Assembly: GCF_029760955.1 (NCBI RefSeq)
Contig: NZ_CP121682.1
Location: 2,790,001 to 2,854,000, forward strand
Source of the DNA: Streptomyces cathayae
Lineage (GTDB): Bacteria; Actinomycetota; Actinomycetes; Streptomycetales; Streptomycetaceae
Direction: 5' to 3'
DNA length: 64,000 nt
Of this stretch, positions 37,039 through 46,534 are shown one piece after another; the first letter of the stretch is position 1; the number at the start of each line of letters is the position of its first letter. Below the pieces are notes generated by a model. It worked only from the letters and a program-made list of their open reading frames with translations. It did not search any database and was not told the origin of the DNA. The translations under genes and the position numbers were made by a program.

Positions 37039-39807
37039 TCAGTACAGGCTCAGGAGGGCTTCGGAGGGGTCGGGGAGGGGGGTTTCGCCGTTGGGGAGGG
37101 GGAGTTCGAACCAGACGGTCTTGCCGCGGGGGGTGCGGCGGGAGCCCCAGGCCGCGCTGAGCAGGCCGACGAGCTGGAGGCCGCGGCCGCCCTCGTCGGT
37201 GTCGCGGGCGCGGCGGCGGCGCGGCTGGACCAGGCCGGCGTCCCAGACCTCGCAGACCAGGGTGCGGTCGAGCAGGAGGCGGAGCCTGATCTCTCCCTCG
37301 CCGTAGCGCAGGGCGTTGGTGACCAGCTCGCTGACCAGGAGTTCCGCGGTGTCGACGAGGGGTTCCAGGCCCCAGGCGAGCAGGCGCGTGCGGGCGTGCT
37401 CGCGGGCGCGGCCCACGCTGCGGGGCTCGCGCGGCAGCGTCCAGTCGCCGACGGAGTCGGCGGGCAGTCCCTGGACCCTGGCCATCAGCAGCGCGATGTC
37501 GTCCTCGCCGTGGTGGGTGTCGAGGGTGTTGAGGACGTGGTCGCAGACGTCCTCCAGGTCCCGGTGGGTGCCGGCGTGCGGTGCCGTCGTCGCGGGGTGG
37601 TGGCCGGACGGCGGGTGGGGCGGGTCGGTGAGGGCGCCCACGAAGGCCTGGAGGCCCTCGTCGAGGGGGTGGTCGCGGCTTTCGACCAGCCCGTCCGTGT
37701 AGAGCGCGAGCAGGGCGCCCTCGGGCAGTTCGACCTCGACCTCCTCGAAGGGCTCCCCGCCGACGCCGAGCGGCATGCCCGGCGGCACGTCCAGCATCAG
37801 GGCGGCCTCCCCCGGTTCGACCAGGACCGGGGGCAGATGGCCCGCGTTGGCGAAGGTGCACCGCCTGGTCACCGGGTCGTAGACCGCGTAGACGCAGGTC
37901 GCCAGGTAGACCTCGGAGAGGTCGGCCTCCCGGGGGCGGCGGGCGGCCCGGGTCGCCTGCTGGACCCCTCCGGGGGCGCCGAGCCCCTGGACGATCTCGT
38001 CCAGATGGGAGAGCACCTCGGCGGGTTCGAGGTCGAGCTGGGCCAGGGTGCGGACGGCGCTGCGCAGTTCGCCCATGGCCACCGCCGCGCGCAGTCCCCG
38101 CCCCATCACGTCCCCGACGACCAACGCGGTGCGGTGGCCGGGCAGTTCGATGACGTCGAACCAGTCGCCGCCGACCTCGCCGGACCGGCCGGTCGCCGCG
38201 CTGCCGGGCAGGTAGCGGCAGGCGATGTCGAGGCCGGAGGCCTCCGGGTCGCCGGGCGGCAGCAGGGACCGCTGCAGCAGCAGGGCGCGTTCGTGCTCGC
38301 GCCGGTAGAGGCGGGCGTTGTCGATGCAGACGGCGGCGCGCGCGGCCAGTTCCACGGCGAGGTCGCGGTCGCGGTCCCCGAACGGCTCGCTGCCCTTGGT
38401 ACGGGCGAACTGGGCGAGCCCGACCACCGTGTCGTGGGCGACCATCGGCACGGCGAGCGTGGTCCGCACCAGCCCGCCCTCCTCGCCCGGCACCAGTCGC
38501 GGGCGGCCGGTGCGCAGGGCGTCCGCGCACGGCGAGTTGAACGCGTAGTTGTGGACGGCGCCCAGCTTGACGGGTTCGCCGGTGACGCTGAACGGAGCTC
38601 CGGAGACGGCGCTGGCGAAGGCGACGCGGCGCACGTCCGCACTGCCGTCGGCCAGTCCCGGCGGGGTCTCGTCGCCGGCCAGCAGCCCCTGGTAGAGGTC
38701 GACGGTGGCCAGGTCGCAGAAGCCGGGGACGACCACGTCCAGGAGTTCACGGGCCGTGGTCTCCAGGTCGAGGGAATTGCCGATCCGGGCGCCGGCCTCG
38801 TTGAGCAGGGCGAGGTTGCGCCGTGCCGCGGCGGCCTCGCGGGCGGCGGCACGGCGGGCGGTGATGTCGATTCCCAGCCAGGCGATGCCGATGGGACGGC
38901 CGCTGCCGCTGTGCACGCGGTAGAGGTTGACCGACCAGTGGCGGTGCCCGTCGGTGTCCGGGACGAATCCGGTGACGTGCATGTCCGTGATGGACTCGCC
39001 GGTCTCCAGCACCCTGCGCATGGTCGCGGCCACCCGCTCGGCCTCGGCGCGCGGCAGGTAGTCGTGGACGCCCTTGCCCCGGTGGTCGTCGGGCACGCCG
39101 CCGAAGGTGGACGCGAACTGCTGGTTGGCGCGGCGCACCCGCAGGTCGGGGTCGATCAGCAGGAAGCCGAAAGGAGATTGGCCGAATATGGCCTGCGAGG
39201 CGGCGAGATCGGTCTCGATGCTGCGCAGGGTGCGCACGTCGACGACGATGCAGACGGCTGCCTTCTCGCCGTCCTCGGTGCGCGTCGGCATGACGTAGAC
39301 CTCGGCGACCCCCTCCCGGTCGGGCTCGTCGTCCACGGTGTCGGGGATCCGGAAGGGCACGACTCCGGTCCACTCCCGGCCGTCGAGGATCTCGGCCATC
39401 TTGCGCTGGCCCCGCTCACGCCGGTCCGGGTCGACGAACGCCGCGATGGGGTCCATGCCGACGGCCCGCGCCGCCGGGATGCCGAGGAGCTGTTCGGCGC
39501 GCAGGCTCCACTGGTCGACCAGTCCGTCGGGGCCGATGGAGAAGGACGCGACCCTTATGTAGTCGTACATGGAGCCGGGAGGGCTGCTCTGCCACATCCC
39601 GTCGACGGCCGGACCGCCGACGGAGGGAGGAGTGCCGGAAGGGGCGACGGAAGAGGCGTCGGCGGCCAGGGCCTCGACGGGAGAAACGCCGGCGGACGGA
39701 ACTCCGCCGGACGTGGGATCGCCTGAAGTGAGGCCGTCAGTGGCCTCGGCCCTTGCGCCGTCCGACGGGTCCTTGGACTCCGTGGCCTTCGCTGGTATCT
39801 CGCTCAC
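37039..39807 (-). CDS. PAS-PAS-GAF-SpoIIE phosphatase with C-terminal RsbW-like ATPase
   Basis: 922 residues from GTG 39807 (VSEIPAKATESK), which has GGAGGGGA upstream; longer frames upstream look noncoding. After a disordered Pro/Ser/Ala-rich stretch of about 70 residues come PAS 1 (YIRVASFSIGPDGLVDQWS), PAS 2 (QSPFGFLLIDPDLRVRRANQ), GAF (about 335-500) and the SpoIIE/PP2C domain, with metal Asp in GEVGGDWFDV, VVGDVMGRGL and GEDDIALLM. The C-terminal HATPase has LVSELVTNALRYG and DEGGRGLQLV. Such proteins couple signals to an anti-anti-sigma partner by dephosphorylation. Confidence 0.92.
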   Translation of the reverse strand: MSEIPAKATESKDPSDGARAEATDGLTSGDPTSGGVPSAGVSPVEALAADASSVAPSGTPPSVGGPAVDGMWQSSPPGSMYDYIRVASFSIGPDGLVDQWSLRAEQLLGIPAARAVGMDPIAAFVDPDRRERGQRKMAEILDGREWTGVVPFRIPDTVDDEPDREGVAEVYVMPTRTEDGEKAAVCIVVDVRTLRSIETDLAASQAIFGQSPFGFLLIDPDLRVRRANQQFASTFGGVPDDHRGKGVHDYLPRAEAERVAATMRRVLETGESITDMHVTGFVPDTDGHRHWSVNLYRVHSGSGRPIGIAWLGIDITARRAAAREAAAARRNLALLNEAGARIGNSLDLETTARELLDVVVPGFCDLATVDLYQGLLAGDETPPGLADGSADVRRVAFASAVSGAPFSVTGEPVKLGAVHNYAFNSPCADALRTGRPRLVPGEEGGLVRTTLAVPMVAHDTVVGLAQFARTKGSEPFGDRDRDLAVELAARAAVCIDNARLYRREHERALLLQRSLLPPGDPEASGLDIACRYLPGSAATGRSGEVGGDWFDVIELPGHRTALVVGDVMGRGLRAAVAMGELRSAVRTLAQLDLEPAEVLSHLDEIVQGLGAPGGVQQATRAARRPREADLSEVYLATCVYAVYDPVTRRCTFANAGHLPPVLVEPGEAALMLDVPPGMPLGVGGEPFEEVEVELPEGALLALYTDGLVESRDHPLDEGLQAFVGALTDPPHPPSGHHPATTAPHAGTHRDLEDVCDHVLNTLDTHHGEDDIALLMARVQGLPADSVGDWTLPREPRSVGRAREHARTRLLAWGLEPLVDTAELLVSELVTNALRYGEGEIRLRLLLDRTLVCEVWDAGLVQPRRRRARDTDEGGRGLQLVGLLSAAWGSRRTPRGKTVWFELPLPNGETPLPDPSEALLSLY

Positions 39808-40098
39808 GCGAACCGTCCCCTCCAGCTCACCGCGTCCGGCACCGGTCGCCGGGGGCGGCTGCCCGCAGTATCCAGCACTACGGCGCCGCACAACACGGTG
39901 TTCACGATCACAGCACGCTCCCGATGCTTTTCGGTCCGAACTGTGAGAACACTCCCAGTCTTCTAACCAGCGGACACGTCGTCGAACCCCCTTCTTCGAC
40001 AACCATCAGGGGCCGGAACCGGCCGCTCGACAGGAGTGGCCCGCGCGTACACGGGCGAGGCATGGCACAGCGCCTCGTTTCAGCCGGGCGCGAACGCC

Positions 40099-40515
40099 TC
40101 ACTCGGGCACCGTGAGTTCGAACCACACGGTCTTGCCGACCTCGCCCGGCCGGGTGCCCCAGCGGCGGGTGGTGCGGGCGACGAGCTGCAGCCCGCGCCC
40201 GCCCTCGTCCTCGGCCCGGGCGACCCGCTCGTGCGGGAGGTCCGGCAGCGGGTCGGAGACCTCGACCCGCAGGACGCCGTCCGGTCCGGAGGAACGCGAC
40301 AGGCAGACGCCGATGGGACCGGTTGCGTGCCGCAGGGCGTTGGTGACCAGCTCGCTGACCAGCAGGGCCGCCAGGTCACCGACGCCGTCGAGCCCCCAGC
40401 CGTGCAACTGCGCGCGGACCGTGGAGCGCGCGGCACCCACGGCACCCGGCTCCGCGGGGAAGGTCCACGTGACCCGGTCGCCTTCGGTGTCGATCACGCG
40501 GACCACTTCCGTCAC
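40099..40515 (-). CDS. RsbW-like ATP-binding protein
   Basis: 138 residues from a GTG (VTEVVRVIDTEGD). A single HATPase_c domain: N box LLVSELVTNALRHA, G1-like LRVEVSDPLPDLP, G2 DEGGRGLQLVARTTRRWG, and the closing GKTVWFEL motif. It lies upstream of the SpoIIE-type gene on the same strand, about 290 bases away. Together they may form a partner-switching pair, though the SpoIIE protein has its own ATPase domain. Binding partner unknown. Confidence 0.85.
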   Translation of the reverse strand: MTEVVRVIDTEGDRVTWTFPAEPGAVGAARSTVRAQLHGWGLDGVGDLAALLVSELVTNALRHATGPIGVCLSRSSGPDGVLRVEVSDPLPDLPHERVARAEDEGGRGLQLVARTTRRWGTRPGEVGKTVWFELTVPE

Positions 40516-40688: not shown

Positions 40689-43544
40689 TCAGTTCGTCAC
40701 CTCGAACGCACCGCGGGCCCCGCGCTCGGCGTCGCTCATGATGTGCGAGACGAACGGATAGGTACCCGCCTCGGGGAAGGTGAGTTCGACGAATCCTCCC
40801 GATCCCGGGGCCAGCGAGAGGATCTGCGCGCCGCCGTCGCCGGGATCGTCCGGGCGGAGCCGGTGGGCGCCCTCCTGGTACACCGTGTCGAACTGGCCGC
40901 CGACCACGTGGAAGGCGCTCGACCGGTTCGGTCCGGCGTCGAGCACCCACACCCGTACCCGCTCGCCGGTGCGCGCGGTCAGCCGGTCGCGGGCGTACTG
41001 GTGGGCGTATCCGTTGAAGACGACGGCGTCGGGCCGCTGGGCCGTCAGCTTGTCCGGGTCGGCGGTCCCGCCCTGCGGACCGAGGTAGAGCTCCGACTGG
41101 ACCAGCAGGTACTCGCGGTCGGCCTCCGGCAGGTCCGGCGGATCGATGACGACGGCCCCGAACATGCCGTTGGCGATGTGCAGCGACATGGGCATCGTGG
41201 AGCAGTGGTACATCCACACACCGCTGCGGGTGGCGGTGAACCGGTAGGTCAGCGACTCGCCGGGCGGGATCGTGCGCATCGGCCGGTCCGGCGCCAGGGC
41301 TCCGGCGTGGAAGTCGACGGAGTGGCCGATCGTTCCGCTGTTGACGAGTTCGATCTCGAAGACGTCGCCGACCCGTCCGCGCAGCACGGGCCCGGGAGCG
41401 GTCCCGTCGAACGTCCACAGCCGCTGCCTGACGCCCGGGGCGACCTCGCGTACGGCGTCGCGCACGGTCAGGGTCCTGCGGTGTGTCCGGGGAGCGGTGT
41501 CCTCGCGTGCGGGCGGCAACTGCGCGTCACGGCCGGTGAATCCGGCGGGCGGTTGGGCCATGGGGTCGAAGGCCTCCTCGGCGGAGTTCCGCGCCGTCTC
41601 CTCGCCGCCGCTGCCGTCGGCGGCCGAAGCGCTCCCCTCGTGACTCTCGTGTCCCTCATGCCCCTCGCGCCCCTCGCGCCCCGCCGTGCCCTCCGCGGCC
41701 GGCCCGGGGGAACCGGTGGCCTCGACGGTGAGCACCATGCCCATCTGCCGGTGGCCCACCACGGAGCACCATCCGTCCAGGTCCCGTCCGACGACGCCCG
41801 CGTCGAGCGTGCCCTGCTTCCCCGGGGCCAGCCGGGCGGTGCGGGCGCCGGTCTCCAGGACCAGGTCGTGCTGGTCGGTCCCGAGGTTGTGCACCTCGAT
41901 CACCAGCCGGTCGCCCGCGGGCACCTCGACGGTGTCCGGTGTGAAGCGCATGCCGCGAACGGTGACCGTCACCGTGGTGGTCCGGCCGGTGGGCGGCACC
42001 GCCTCGCCGTCCTCGGTGGCGGCCGCGGCATCGTCGGACGAGCCGGTCACGGGCAGGGAGCGTACGTCCGCCGCACCGCCGCCGGCGACGGCCAGCACCG
42101 CCACCGCCACACCGACGGCCACACCGCCCAGCACCCGGTACGGGCGCTGCCGCGGCACCGCGGGCCGGGCCTCCGGCTGGGGCGCCGACCGGGCCGCCGT
42201 CCGGGCCGTCGCCCTCGTCCGTACGGCTGTGACCAGCAGCGTCAGGAAGGCCACCAGCGCCCCCAGCAGCACCGTCGAACTGATCACGCGCACCACGCTC
42301 GGCACCGGCAGCACACACAGCAGCAGCGACAGGTTGACGAGGGTCAGCCGGGCCGGGCCGCCTCGCTCCAGTGCCGCGGTGGTGGCCCGTACGGCGGTGG
42401 GCCCGCCCCCGAGCACCACCGGCACCAGGAAACTCAGCGCGCCCATGAGCACCTGTGCCATCCAGCCCCCGGCCAGCGGGGCGGTCAGCGACGCCGTCCG
42501 CTCCACCACCGCGGGCCAGGACGGCGAGGTCAGCAGGATCGCCGTGAGCGCGGCCAGCGCGCCGAGCAGCCAGACCGTTCCCGCCGCCACCGACCAGGCC
42601 GCGAACGACGACGGCGTCCGTACCCGCGCCTCGCGGACCCGGGGGACGCCCCCGAGCACCAGCCCCGCCACGAAGACGCCGACCCCGGCCGCGGTCGGTG
42701 CCGGCGGCAGTGTGAGCGCCGCGAGGACGGCCGCGCCGAGGCCGCCGAGCAGGACCGGCAGGGCGGTGCGGGCCGCCTTCTCCGCGCCGTCCGCCACCCG
42801 GGTGCGCAGCATCGTCGGCCACAGGGTGACGAGGGTTCCGGCCACCGTGAGACCGAGCCAGCCGAGGAGGTTGACCATCTCGTGGGCGATCAGCAGGCGG
42901 GCGGCACCGTGGTCGGAGAGATCGCCGCGGGCCATGATCACGCCCATCGCCGCTCCCGCCGGCAGCAGCGCGGCGGCCGCGACGTAGTAGCGCACGGTCA
43001 GGGCGAAGCGGCTGGGCAGGGCCCGCCGCAGCAGGCGGACCAGCCAGACGGCGTGGACCGCGACGGCGGTGGCGACCAGCGTGCCGCCCGCGAGCACGAC
43101 GGGCCAGTGGCCGGTGAGCAGGCCGGTGATCACGGCGACGGCCCCGGTGTTGAGGCCGGCCAGCCGCAGCGCCGCCGGGGCTCCCCGGTCGGCCTCGGGC
43201 AGCCGCAGTACGGAGGCGGCGAAGTGCCCCGACCAGATGACGACGGCGTTGCTCACCGCCCCGAGCAGCAGCAGATGGACGAGCAGCCAGCGGGCCGCCG
43301 GTACGAAGGGGTGGACCAGCGCGGCGACGGCGAAGAGCACCAGCCAGCCCACCACCACGGCGTTCACCCTCAGGTGCCAGGAGGCACGGGGTGGTCGCGA
43401 CCGCCCGGACGACGGCATCCCTACGGGGATCCCGAGTGCTCCGGGGACTCCGGGTGCTCGAGGGGTTTCAGGTGCCCCGGGTGTATCGGGTGCCTCAGGC
43501 GTCTCGGGTGTCTCAGGGCTTCTGGAGGAGGGGTTCACGGTCAT
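40689..43544 (-). CDS. Membrane-domain / cupredoxin / copper nitrite reductase-like fusion
   Basis: 951 residues. A Pro/Thr/Glu-rich tail (1-45) precedes about 12 membrane helices (60-470), including WLLVHLLLLGAVSNAVVIWS and LIAHEMVNLLGWLG with heme-ligand-like His. A cupredoxin domain (545-605) has type-1 copper ligands His559, Cys593, His598 and Met601 or 603. Two NirK-like domains follow (690-951): type-1 ligands His741, Cys781, His789, Met794; type-2 ligands His746, His780, His934; catalytic-like Asp744 and His879. It probably reduces nitrite to NO, or is a related oxidase, outside the membrane. ATGA overlap with the upstream gene. Confidence 0.85.
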   Translation of the reverse strand: MTVNPSSRSPETPETPEAPDTPGAPETPRAPGVPGALGIPVGMPSSGRSRPPRASWHLRVNAVVVGWLVLFAVAALVHPFVPAARWLLVHLLLLGAVSNAVVIWSGHFAASVLRLPEADRGAPAALRLAGLNTGAVAVITGLLTGHWPVVLAGGTLVATAVAVHAVWLVRLLRRALPSRFALTVRYYVAAAALLPAGAAMGVIMARGDLSDHGAARLLIAHEMVNLLGWLGLTVAGTLVTLWPTMLRTRVADGAEKAARTALPVLLGGLGAAVLAALTLPPAPTAAGVGVFVAGLVLGGVPRVREARVRTPSSFAAWSVAAGTVWLLGALAALTAILLTSPSWPAVVERTASLTAPLAGGWMAQVLMGALSFLVPVVLGGGPTAVRATTAALERGGPARLTLVNLSLLLCVLPVPSVVRVISSTVLLGALVAFLTLLVTAVRTRATARTAARSAPQPEARPAVPRQRPYRVLGGVAVGVAVAVLAVAGGGAADVRSLPVTGSSDDAAAATEDGEAVPPTGRTTTVTVTVRGMRFTPDTVEVPAGDRLVIEVHNLGTDQHDLVLETGARTARLAPGKQGTLDAGVVGRDLDGWCSVVGHRQMGMVLTVEATGSPGPAAEGTAGREGREGHEGHESHEGSASAADGSGGEETARNSAEEAFDPMAQPPAGFTGRDAQLPPAREDTAPRTHRRTLTVRDAVREVAPGVRQRLWTFDGTAPGPVLRGRVGDVFEIELVNSGTIGHSVDFHAGALAPDRPMRTIPPGESLTYRFTATRSGVWMYHCSTMPMSLHIANGMFGAVVIDPPDLPEADREYLLVQSELYLGPQGGTADPDKLTAQRPDAVVFNGYAHQYARDRLTARTGERVRVWVLDAGPNRSSAFHVVGGQFDTVYQEGAHRLRPDDPGDGGAQILSLAPGSGGFVELTFPEAGTYPFVSHIMSDAERGARGAFEVTN

Positions 43545-44890
43545 TGGGCCTGCTTCTCCGCGGGTCGTGGCTCGGTGCGCGGCGCCGCGCCGGCGGTCAG
43601 GAACAGGGCCGCCGCCGTCCCGACGAACAGCAGGACGGCGACGATGTCGAGGACCCCGCCCACCCGCCAGGCCGAGGGGGAGTCGCGCAGGTCACCGAGG
43701 AGGACGCGTAGCGCCAGCGAGAGGTGCAACAGCCAGGCGGGGACGGCCAGCACCGGGCGGTACGGCAGCGGGCGGCGCAGCACGGCGGGCAGGATCACCG
43801 GGGCGTGCGCCATGATCATCGAGATGACGAAGCCCAGGAAGACGCAGTGCACCAGGGCGTCGTAGCGGGGGCCGTCGGCGATCGGCCCGTCCAGCAGCCA
43901 CAGCGCACCCGCCAGGCCGAGCCAGGCGTACCCGGCCAGCAGGCAGGCGGCCGAGAACCGGGGCAGCCCGGTCGAGCGCAGCATGCGGCGGGCGACGTCG
44001 TACGTGGTCAGCCAGGCGACCAGGGCGAGCAGTGCGACGGCGAGCAGCAGGGTGCCGGGGGCGGGCCACAGCAGGGTGGCGGCGGTGCCGGCCAGGACGG
44101 CCCCGACGCAGGCGAGGAAGGTCTGCTCGGTGCGCGGTGCCAGGAAGGCCACCCTGGCCAGTTCCAGCCGCTCCCCCGCGATGGTCAGCACCAGGAAGGC
44201 GACCAGCCAGGGCAGCAGCCGGGGCACGTCCAGTCCGCCCAGCCACAGCAGGGCCGCGCCGAGTGCCGAGACCGCGCCCGCGGCCTGGCCCGCCAGGGCG
44301 GGGCCGGGTTGGCGGCGCCAGAAGCGGACGTACAGGGCGAGCAGCAGGGCGGTGCCGAGGACGAACAGCCCCTGCCCGACGCGGAGGTCCGCCGGGCTGA
44401 TCAGCAGCAGGCCGCCCGCGCCCAGCGAACCGGGGGAGAGGTACCCCCAGGGGCGGCCCAGCGCGACGGCCCGTTCGAGCGCGATCAGCGTCCCGACGAA
44501 CCCCAGGACCATGAGCACGCCGTGGACCTCCGGCAGCCGGTCGGCGGTGACCGGGGCGGGCAGCCCGAGCAGCAGCAGCGCGGCGTCCAGCCCGGCCAGC
44601 AGGGCGAGCCCGGCCGGCAACAGCAGCACCGCCCGACGAGCACCGGCCCGACGGGCGGCCTGGGTCGGGGTCGGGGTCGGGGTCGGGATCGGGGTCGGGA
44701 TCGGGTCCGGAGCCAGGTCCGGGTCCGGGTCCGGAGCCAGGTCCGGGTCCGGGGTCGGGTCCGGGTCCGGGTCCGGGTCCGGGGTCGGGGTCGGGTCCGG
44801 GTCCGGGTCCGGGTCCGGGGTCGGGGTCGGGTCCGGGTCCGGAGTTAGGTCCGGGTCCGGGGTTGGCTCCGGGGCTTCGGTGGGGGTCAT
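43541..44890 (-). CDS. NnrS-like multi-pass membrane protein with poly(Pro-Asp/Thr) tail
   Basis: 449 residues from ATG 44890 (MTPTEAPEPTPDPD). About the first 75 residues are a repetitive Pro-Asp/Pro-Thr tail, probably disordered and cytoplasmic. About twelve membrane helices follow. Conserved-looking His occur in LPEVHGVLMVLGFVGTLIAL, DALVHCVFLGFVISMIMAHA and WLLHLSLALRVLLGD, as in NnrS-type heme-copper proteins tied to nitric-oxide metabolism. It overlaps the regulator upstream and the nitrite-reductase-like gene downstream by 4 bases each, so the three are a tightly coupled operon. Confidence 0.8.
   Translation of the reverse strand: MTPTEAPEPTPDPDLTPDPDPTPTPDPDPDPDPTPTPDPDPDPDPTPDPDLAPDPDPDLAPDPIPTPIPTPTPTPTQAARRAGARRAVLLLPAGLALLAGLDAALLLLGLPAPVTADRLPEVHGVLMVLGFVGTLIALERAVALGRPWGYLSPGSLGAGGLLLISPADLRVGQGLFVLGTALLLALYVRFWRRQPGPALAGQAAGAVSALGAALLWLGGLDVPRLLPWLVAFLVLTIAGERLELARVAFLAPRTEQTFLACVGAVLAGTAATLLWPAPGTLLLAVALLALVAWLTTYDVARRMLRSTGLPRFSAACLLAGYAWLGLAGALWLLDGPIADGPRYDALVHCVFLGFVISMIMAHAPVILPAVLRRPLPYRPVLAVPAWLLHLSLALRVLLGDLRDSPSAWRVGGVLDIVAVLLFVGTAAALFLTAGAAPRTEPRPAEKQAQ
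44661..44872 (-). repeat. Degenerate 6-bp tandem repeats encoding the Pro-Asp tail
   Basis: Imperfect repeats of GGGTCC/GGGGTC units run for about 210 bases at the start of the NnrS-like gene. They encode runs of Pro-Asp and Pro-Thr. All units are multiples of three, so expansion keeps the frame. Confidence 0.85.
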
Positions 44891-45654
44891 CCGAGGTCCC
44901 CGTCCGGGTCGGTCGCGGCCTTCGGGCCTCCCCCTGCCGGGTCCGGGCCGGTGGCGTCCTCCGGGCCGGTGGCGAAGTGGAGGCGGCAGGCACCCGGCTC
45001 GGCGAAGGGGTGCAGGGAGACCCCCTCCGGGTCGCCGCCCAGCGCGGCGTAACCCGCCCGGGCCAGCCCCGCGTGGACGTTGCAGATCACACCGGGGTAC
45101 TCGAGGGCGACCTCGATGAAGGGGCATCGCGGCAGCCGCACCCGTTCCTCGCCCTGCAGCCGCCCCGCCTCGTCGGCCTCCGGTGCGAAGCCGATCTCGT
45201 CGAGCAGCGCCAGCACCCGCTCGCGGGCCTCCGCCGGGCTCGCGGGAGGCTCCTGGCCGGCCGTCAGGGCGCGGCCCCACTCCTCCCCGGCGGCCAGGGC
45301 GTCCGCTCGCGGATCGGCGCCGGTCCGGGCGATCTGCGCGGCGAGCACGGCGGCCAGACCGGCGTACTCCCGGACGGCGGACCGCTGCGGCGGCTGGGAA
45401 CGGTAGCGCCAGGCGGGTCGGCCGCGCCCGGCGGCCGGCGCCCGCTCGCGGACCGCGAGCCCGATCTCCACCAGCGCGTCCAGGTGCTCCCGGACGGTGT
45501 TGACGTGCAGCCCGCACTCGCGCGCGAGCGCGGTGGCCGTGGTGGGCCGCGGCTGACCGCGCAGGTGCTGGAGGACGGCGTTGCGCTGCCGGGACACGGG
45601 CGGCCGGTCATCGGCTCCGCCGCCCGGGAGTGGCGGCTTATTTTCCACGGACAT
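44887..45654 (-). CDS. Winged-helix regulator with Cys motif (SufR-like, probable Fe-S sensor)
   Basis: 255 residues from ATG 45654. The N-terminal winged helix (about 22-85: RNAVLQHLRGQPRPTTATAL, GLHVNTVREHLDALVEIGLA, AGRGRPAWRYR) matches the ArsR/SufR-like group. The C-terminal half has Cys177, Cys191 and Cys223 (CPFIEVALEYPGVICNVH, GACRLHF), like the Fe-S ligands of SufR. A TATACT -10 element ends 6 bases before the ATG and no Shine-Dalgarno is present, so the mRNA is probably leaderless. The start codon lies inside a palindrome, suggesting autorepression. Probably senses NO, oxygen or iron for this operon. Confidence 0.82.
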   Translation of the reverse strand: MSVENKPPLPGGGADDRPPVSRQRNAVLQHLRGQPRPTTATALARECGLHVNTVREHLDALVEIGLAVRERAPAAGRGRPAWRYRSQPPQRSAVREYAGLAAVLAAQIARTGADPRADALAAGEEWGRALTAGQEPPASPAEARERVLALLDEIGFAPEADEAGRLQGEERVRLPRCPFIEVALEYPGVICNVHAGLARAGYAALGGDPEGVSLHPFAEPGACRLHFATGPEDATGPDPAGGGPKAATDPDGDLG

Positions 45655-45660
45655 GTCCGT
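45647..45660. promoter_or_regulatory. Palindromic operator between regulator and hemerythrin genes
   Basis: ACGGACATGTCCGT is a perfect 14-bp palindrome containing the regulator's ATG. The plus-strand stretch TAGTATATT right beside it (45660-45668) supplies -10-like elements both ways: TATACT for the regulator and TAGTAT or TATATT for the hemerythrin gene. Binding here should control both transcripts. Confidence 0.7.
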
Positions 45661-45742
45661 AGTATATTCGAGGCGCAGCGTCCGTCCGGCCGCCCGGCTC
45701 GATCCGAGCCGCACGGCGCACCTCAACCGCTGGAGACTCCGC

Positions 45743-46534
45743 ATGAGCACTCTCACCATCGCGTCGGACCCCGAGGAGGCCGCGGCCGTCGAAGCCGTCG
45801 AGGCTCACCACGCCCAGCTGGCAGGCGAGTTGGGCGGGCGGGTCACGATGCTGCTCGACGCGCTGGACCGCGACCCCGCCTCGGCCGAGGACATCCGGGC
45901 CGGCCTCGTCGCCTTCTGCGACCGGCAACTTCTCCCGCACGCCGAGGCCGAGGAGTCGGCCCTCTACCCCGCGGCGCACAGAACCGCGGAGGCCCGTCTG
46001 CTGATCGAGGGCATGCTCGCCGAGCACCGCAGGATCACGGAGCTGGTGGAGGCGCTGCGCTCCGCTCCCTCCCCGGCCCGCGCGGCGGGCGACGCCCGCG
46101 CGCTCCAGGTGCTCTTCGAGGAGCACCTGGACAAGGAGAACGACCTCGTACTGCCGCTGATCGCGGCCTCTTCCGAGGTCTCCCTCGCCGGACTGCTCGA
46201 CGGGATGCACGACCTCCTGGGCGGCCATGACGACACCGAGGGCCACGCGGCCGCGGAAGGCGGGCAGCAGTCCGGCGGCGCCTGCGGCTGCGGTGGCCAC
46301 GACGAGGCCGACGTGCCCGAACTGGACGCCCGCGCCGTCCCGCACGCCCTGCGCCACGCCACGGTCTTCGGCGCCCTCGACGCCGTTCCCGCGGGCCGCG
46401 CCATGGTGCTGATCGCCCCGCACGACCCGCTGCCACTGCTGGGCCAGCTCGAGCGGCGCAACCCCGGCGTCTTCGCGGTCGAGTACCTGGAGCGGGGCCC
46501 GGATGCCTGGCGCCTGCTGCTCACCCGCCGCTGA
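45743..46534 (+). CDS. Hemerythrin-like domain fused to DUF2249
   Basis: 263 residues from ATG 45743 (MSTLTIASDPEEAAAVEAVE); TGGAG lies about 6 bases upstream. The hemerythrin HHE bundle (about 15-160) has di-iron ligand candidates His22/23, His66, Glu70, His95, His128 and Glu132 (LLPHAEAEESALYP, EEHLDKENDLVLPLI). A Gly/His linker with CGCGGH joins it to a DUF2249 domain (about 195-262, LDARAVPHALRHATVFGALDAVPAGRAMVLI). Such proteins are often linked to NO, nitrite or denitrification genes and may bind O2 or NO. Divergent from the nitrite-reductase-like operon. Confidence 0.88.
   Translation: MSTLTIASDPEEAAAVEAVEAHHAQLAGELGGRVTMLLDALDRDPASAEDIRAGLVAFCDRQLLPHAEAEESALYPAAHRTAEARLLIEGMLAEHRRITELVEALRSAPSPARAAGDARALQVLFEEHLDKENDLVLPLIAASSEVSLAGLLDGMHDLLGGHDDTEGHAAAEGGQQSGGACGCGGHDEADVPELDARAVPHALRHATVFGALDAVPAGRAMVLIAPHDPLPLLGQLERRNPGVFAVEYLERGPDAWRLLLTRR

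Follow-up and report, generated by a model that had tools for sequence, protein, structure and literature searches.

The 64,000-nucleotide stretch of the Streptomyces cathayae chromosome analysed here (the window, at 2.79-2.85 Mb on the 7.46-Mb contig of a 7.6-Mb genome) encodes a 951-residue protein that is of the NirK type, judged by its sequence, in which all the copper-binding and catalytic residues are present. We read it as a membrane-anchored, probably quinol-fed nitrite reductase, for which we infer the electron route and the cofactors. Its membrane domain, when modelled, takes the fold of a heme-copper oxidase subunit. The preliminary description of this DNA had placed a membrane part, a cupredoxin and a two-domain NirK in one polypeptide, and this is borne out by a Cupredoxin_1 match (PF13473, residues 521-581), by TIGR02376 and by the model, the start of the protein being uncertain since a 100%-identical listed protein (P0005) has 892 residues. 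Conservation does not extend to residues 1-49.

Features of the fusion gene, its neighbours and the shared promoter region (positions in the window)
Feature	Position	Strand	Remarks
Membrane-cupredoxin-NirK fusion	40689..43544	-	951 aa counted from the overlapping ATG
NirK part, two-domain copper nitrite reductase, residues 672-951	40692..41531	-	TIGR02376, AniA match, ligand set
Type-1 cupredoxin, residues 515-612	41709..42002	-	motif CX4HX4M with His559
Thirteenth helix, residues 468-492	42069..42143	-	from model; predicted to carry the soluble part outside
12-helix membrane domain, residues 53-453	42186..43388	-	heme-copper-oxidase-like fold in model
Polytopic membrane protein, first called NnrS-like	43541..44890	-	449 aa
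36-bp (and 6-bp) tandem repeat	44672..44873	-	N-terminal Pro-Asp/Pro-Thr tract of the NnrS-like protein
Winged-helix regulator	44887..45654	-	PF12840 match
Palindrome ACGGACATGTCCGT	45647..45660	.	candidate operator over the regulator start codon
-10 element TATACT	45661..45666	-	six bases before the ATG, a leaderless start
Hemerythrin-DUF2249 gene	45743..46534	+ (divergent)	263 aa, PF01814 and PF10006

The two-domain cupredoxin fold of NirK is present in the C-terminal part, where TIGR02376 (Cu_nitrite_red) matches residues 675-949 with an E-value of 1.2e-51, its score of 176 bits falling short of the 296.3-bit equivalog cut-off. The type-1 copper ligands are H741, C781, H789 and M794, the type-2 ligands H746, H780 and H934, and the catalytic residues D744 and H879, roles that we assign from NirK numbering and an alignment with AniA. 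The site of the preceding cupredoxin (His559, Cys593, His598 and Met603) is invariant in 69 aligned rows.

The membrane part had been described as about 12 helices; twelve are present in the models, and a thirteenth follows them. The inner, even-numbered loops hold 21 Lys/Arg versus 5 in the odd-numbered ones, with helix limits set by hand, in favour of an outward topology of the soluble part. Because NirK matches took up the results of fold searches with the whole protein, the membrane domain was folded alone, and the predicted model has the 12-helix fold of heme-copper oxidase subunit I. In heme-copper oxidases a His pair in helix 7 and a His in helix 10 provide the CuB/FeB and heme ligands. 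In contrast to subunit I of oxidases and NO reductases (cbb3 and NOR types), the window's protein has no His in helix 7 (254-278) or helix 10 (343-377), nor do the invariant columns of 22 aligned rows include a His in either helix; the domain thus lacks a canonical CuB/FeB site. His90, His221 and Gln364 are invariant in the 22 rows, these two being the only invariant His. PF00115 does not match the window's membrane domain, and none of the 22 module members exceeds its curated cut-off of 34.8 bits, two of them matching at 16.6 and 20.2 bits; a profile of the domain found no match among PDB sequences at an E-value of 10. We take the domain to be a degenerate offshoot of heme-copper oxidase subunit I in which the CuB site has been lost, as part of an explanation that we give about an even chance overall. 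Our literature search, whose coverage leaves out preprints and most subscription papers, found no paper naming a fold for it. When profiles of the membrane domain and of the NnrS-like protein were compared directly, hhalign gave probabilities of 0.6% (A1) and 3.9% (A4), and a link between the two was rejected.

Of 7998 proteins scored against the fusion, 1039 reached an E-value of 0.001 or better, and the named relatives among the best 120 of these belong to Streptomyces or other actinobacteria, the closest named being from Streptomyces. The full-length fusion occurs in two of 15 other sampled genomes of the genus. When the domain alone was searched for among proteins of about 250-790 residues, 551 matched, and many of the best 120 of these are 400-460 residues long and carry no recorded NirK domain, although some may be contig-end fragments. 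Across a phylum-wide sample of 198 genomes, the module was found once each in 31, a count made with a profile built partly from genomes of that sample, and six of these, the window's included, are fusions. A NirK match accompanies seven of the 25 unfused modules: in loci L041, L043, L063, L064, L111 and L115 it is on the same strand and at most about 1.1 kb off, and in L114 it is on the opposite strand at a distance of 2.9 kb; L111 and L114 are matched along only about 140 residues. One unfused module (L061) lies near NosZ, and 17 of the 25 have neither NirK nor NosZ. In L061 (4127-10144) a gene for an Rrf2 regulator stands between the module and the NosZ gene. A regulator of the window's kind is near the unfused modules of L065 and L120, the former being also near a molybdopterin oxidoreductase; that of L070 is near NnrS-like, DUF2249 and Rrf2 genes, and that of L035 near a NarK-like carrier. 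Thirteen unfused modules have no counted neighbour (L062, L066, L067, L068, L069, L112, L113, L116-L119, L121 and L122), L118 showing a weak NarH match; among these, the L068 and L121 contigs measure about 4 kb each, and in L066 a stop codon interrupts the module. These sequence comparisons add that the membrane module also occurs unfused to NirK, though frequently in its neighbourhood.

The three minus-strand genes were said to be joined by two 4-bp overlaps, and both junctions, regulator to NnrS-like gene and NnrS-like gene to fusion, indeed read ATGA. The divergent hemerythrin-DUF2249 gene was also recognised correctly, its product matching PF01814 at 50.5 bits and PF10006 at 83.9 bits, both above cut-off. 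Its presence upholds the proposed NO-related setting, as does a relative in L038 (12728-14439), where genes for an Rrf2 regulator and a globin-reductase (flavohaemoglobin-like) protein follow shortly after the fused NirK. The label NnrS-like, in contrast, found almost no sequence support: PF05940 (NnrS) does not match the window's 449-residue protein and matches one of 63 relatives at an E-value of 0.019. UniRef names two of its relatives 'NnrS family protein'. The NnrS-like match falls in two frames at L010:8599-9689 and L070:4237-5290, through sequencing error or decay. Next to the cluster, inspection of 37039-40515 by eye suggested a PAS/GAF-phosphatase-like protein together with a small anti-sigma-like kinase.

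Besides the window, 12 loci of the fused type were read (L005-L010, L036, L037, L038, L071, L109 and L110). The first six were found with residues 1-480 of the window's fusion and are close relatives (64-74%), so the sample favours conservation; that search gave at least 11 loci, of which L011-L015 were dropped as matching only within residues 4-76, the low-complexity start. L005 ends with its contig inside the membrane domain, in L010 the NnrS-like gene and the NirK end each lie in two frames, and L008, whose contig begins at the NnrS-like gene, was left out of the regulator and hemerythrin counts. The NnrS-like gene adjoins the fusion in 7 of the 12 loci and the regulator in 6 of the 11 assessable ones. 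The preliminary description had asked whether all four genes co-occur: the three-gene core (regulator, NnrS-like gene and fusion) is kept together in 6 of these 11 and all four genes in 5 of 11, counting a partial hemerythrin match in L005 and a DUF2249-only gene in L071, and the remaining loci differ. No hemerythrin match was found at L010. In L036, L037 and L109 the fusion adjoins NarGH and a radical SAM gene instead, L037 having a hemerythrin-DUF2249 gene 2.4 kb away, and L110 has none of the cluster genes, NarGH, radical SAM, Rrf2 or globin-reductase protein. By eye, for 30 of the 120 listed relatives of the fusion the longest contig is exactly as long as that of a listed relative of the NnrS-like protein, which suggests a wider linkage.

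The regulator has three conserved Cys (C-x13-C ... C) in all eight aligned rows, the window included, and the SufR model TIGR02702 scores 19.7 bits on it against a cut-off of 178.8. Around its start, TATASTACGGRCATGWCCGTGGAAAA is kept in all six loci compared (the window and five from Streptomyces), and TATAST-ACGGRC-ATG likewise recurs in 6 of 6, conservation that is partly that of coding sequence. The window and L010 (2/6) have a perfect palindrome; each of L005, L006, L007 and L009 has one asymmetry. In a genome-wide scan the copy in the window was the best match and only two others came within two mismatches; by eye, no NO-linked genes lie beside those two. The conserved operon core with its candidate operator, as recognised from these alignments, is new here.

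That no nitrate reductase gene is nearby is true within the window, but NarGH is encoded on the same chromosome. The idea of a self-contained unit does not survive a view of the whole chromosome, which also encodes NarG and NarH, a carrier resembling NarK, and another NirK. This second NirK is 51% identical to that of the fusion and lies 2.5 Mb away (L004:7365-8804, G000:C1 near 354 kb), beside NarG and NarH, which both exceed the NCBIfam cut-off, a radical SAM protein (TIGR04053) and the NarK-like carrier, which scores below cut-off. One more NarG match was found where the L004 stretch ends. By eye, the protein keeps the anchor helix and has no helices 1-12. It groups with the fused NirK proteins of L036 and L037, which stand in nar clusters of the same kind, with a support of 95/100 (midpoint root, long branches elsewhere), so that it has probably lost the membrane domain. 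PF00115 finds three proteins in the genome, all with FGHPEVY, the motif of aa3 oxidases; with this model as single probe no NO reductase was found. Three globins are encoded.

Our account, for and against which the chances as a whole seem evenly balanced, is that the fusion would be anchored in the cell membrane and work on its outer side as a copper nitrite reductase. The membrane domain of the fusion would most likely hold a b-type heme, take electrons from menaquinol or another membrane donor and pass them through the cupredoxin to the type-1 copper of the NirK part, where nitrite would be reduced to NO. As the CuB site is lost, the 12-helix domain itself probably reduces neither O2 nor NO. 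The regulator, probably a sensor of NO or Fe-S status, is likely to repress its own operon through the palindrome on the leaderless start, while NO is perhaps dealt with by the hemerythrin-DUF2249 protein and by the globins encoded elsewhere.

That the membrane domain carries electrons from quinol is preferred but unproven, and the oxidase-like domain might instead bind, buffer or export the NO made by NirK, as a built-in protection. We consider this unlikely. NO needs other handling because all three PF00115 proteins carry the aa3-oxidase motif; the hemerythrin-DUF2249 gene of the cluster, the Rrf2 and globin-reductase genes near the L038 fusion, and the NnrS-like and DUF2249 genes adjoining the unfused L070 module are also consistent with it. 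However, the unfused modules of L061 (close to NosZ) and L065 (close to a molybdopterin oxidoreductase) fit a redox partner better. A rather more doubtful suggestion is that the domain serves just to anchor the enzyme or to support its assembly, without taking part in redox chemistry, as might be argued from the well-supported kinship of the anchor-only NirK in the same genome with two fused ones; against this, His, Arg, Tyr, Trp and Gln in or at the membrane are invariant across 22 divergent rows, and the module also exists unfused.

Less probable again is that the domain works as a non-canonical NO reductase and lets a single chain take nitrite to N2O, given that its helices 7 and 10 have no His and that only two His are invariant in the 22 rows; a new type of NO reductase with a non-standard site, releasing no free NO between nitrite and N2O, we regard as slightly more improbable still. 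Many relatives are publicly named 'multicopper oxidase domain-containing protein' (others 'nitrite reductase (NO-forming)'), and many database entries would accordingly make the fusion a laccase-like multicopper oxidase. We rejected this very improbable reading on the copper-ligand set: the nine NirK ligand and catalytic residues, Asp744 and His879 among them, support the nitrite-reductase chemistry first proposed, and the best PDB sequence match is the nitrite reductase AniA.

The fusion itself is not novel, having been in print since 2016: in the sections of that paper available to us, actinobacterial NirK of the Propionibacterium acnes type is given as about 900 residues long with N-terminal transmembrane and cupredoxin domains, the former "of unknown function" (Decleyre 2016, PMC4770552). 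The 400-residue membrane domain, CX4HX4M cupredoxin and NirK core are the same in the window's protein, and, relative to those sections, the predicted fold of the domain left there without a function, its unfused relatives, the operon and the operator are added here. According to another study (PMC10999283), NirK of Clade 3, the actinobacterial one, is prevalent in almost every biome surveyed, and many organisms that carry NirK of Clades 2-4 have no NO reductase. The oxidase likeness of the membrane domain may reveal how electrons are supplied to NirK or how NO is handled. An oxidase-fold domain with no canonical CuB, fused to or near NirK and once near NosZ, is a testable candidate for either role, and its two invariant histidines are targets for mutation. 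The three-domain NirK of Hyphomicrobium denitrificans (2dv6, 6tfd; Foldseek E 1.3e-31) shares the N-terminal cupredoxin and NirK, but its solved chain of 422 residues has no membrane domain. In Sinorhizobium meliloti pSymA (L072) a NirK match likewise stands beside an NnrS-like gene, although as separate proteins; the names NnrS, NorB and FixN there are ones we assigned by eye, and the NnrS so called has no detectable kinship to the window's protein (hhalign probability 0.2%). Near this nirK, at L072:23235-24590, is a gene for a 452-residue membrane protein that weakly resembles the module in a shifted register, with an hmmsearch E-value of 1.7e-5 over the ORFs of that stretch only and an hhalign probability of 71%.
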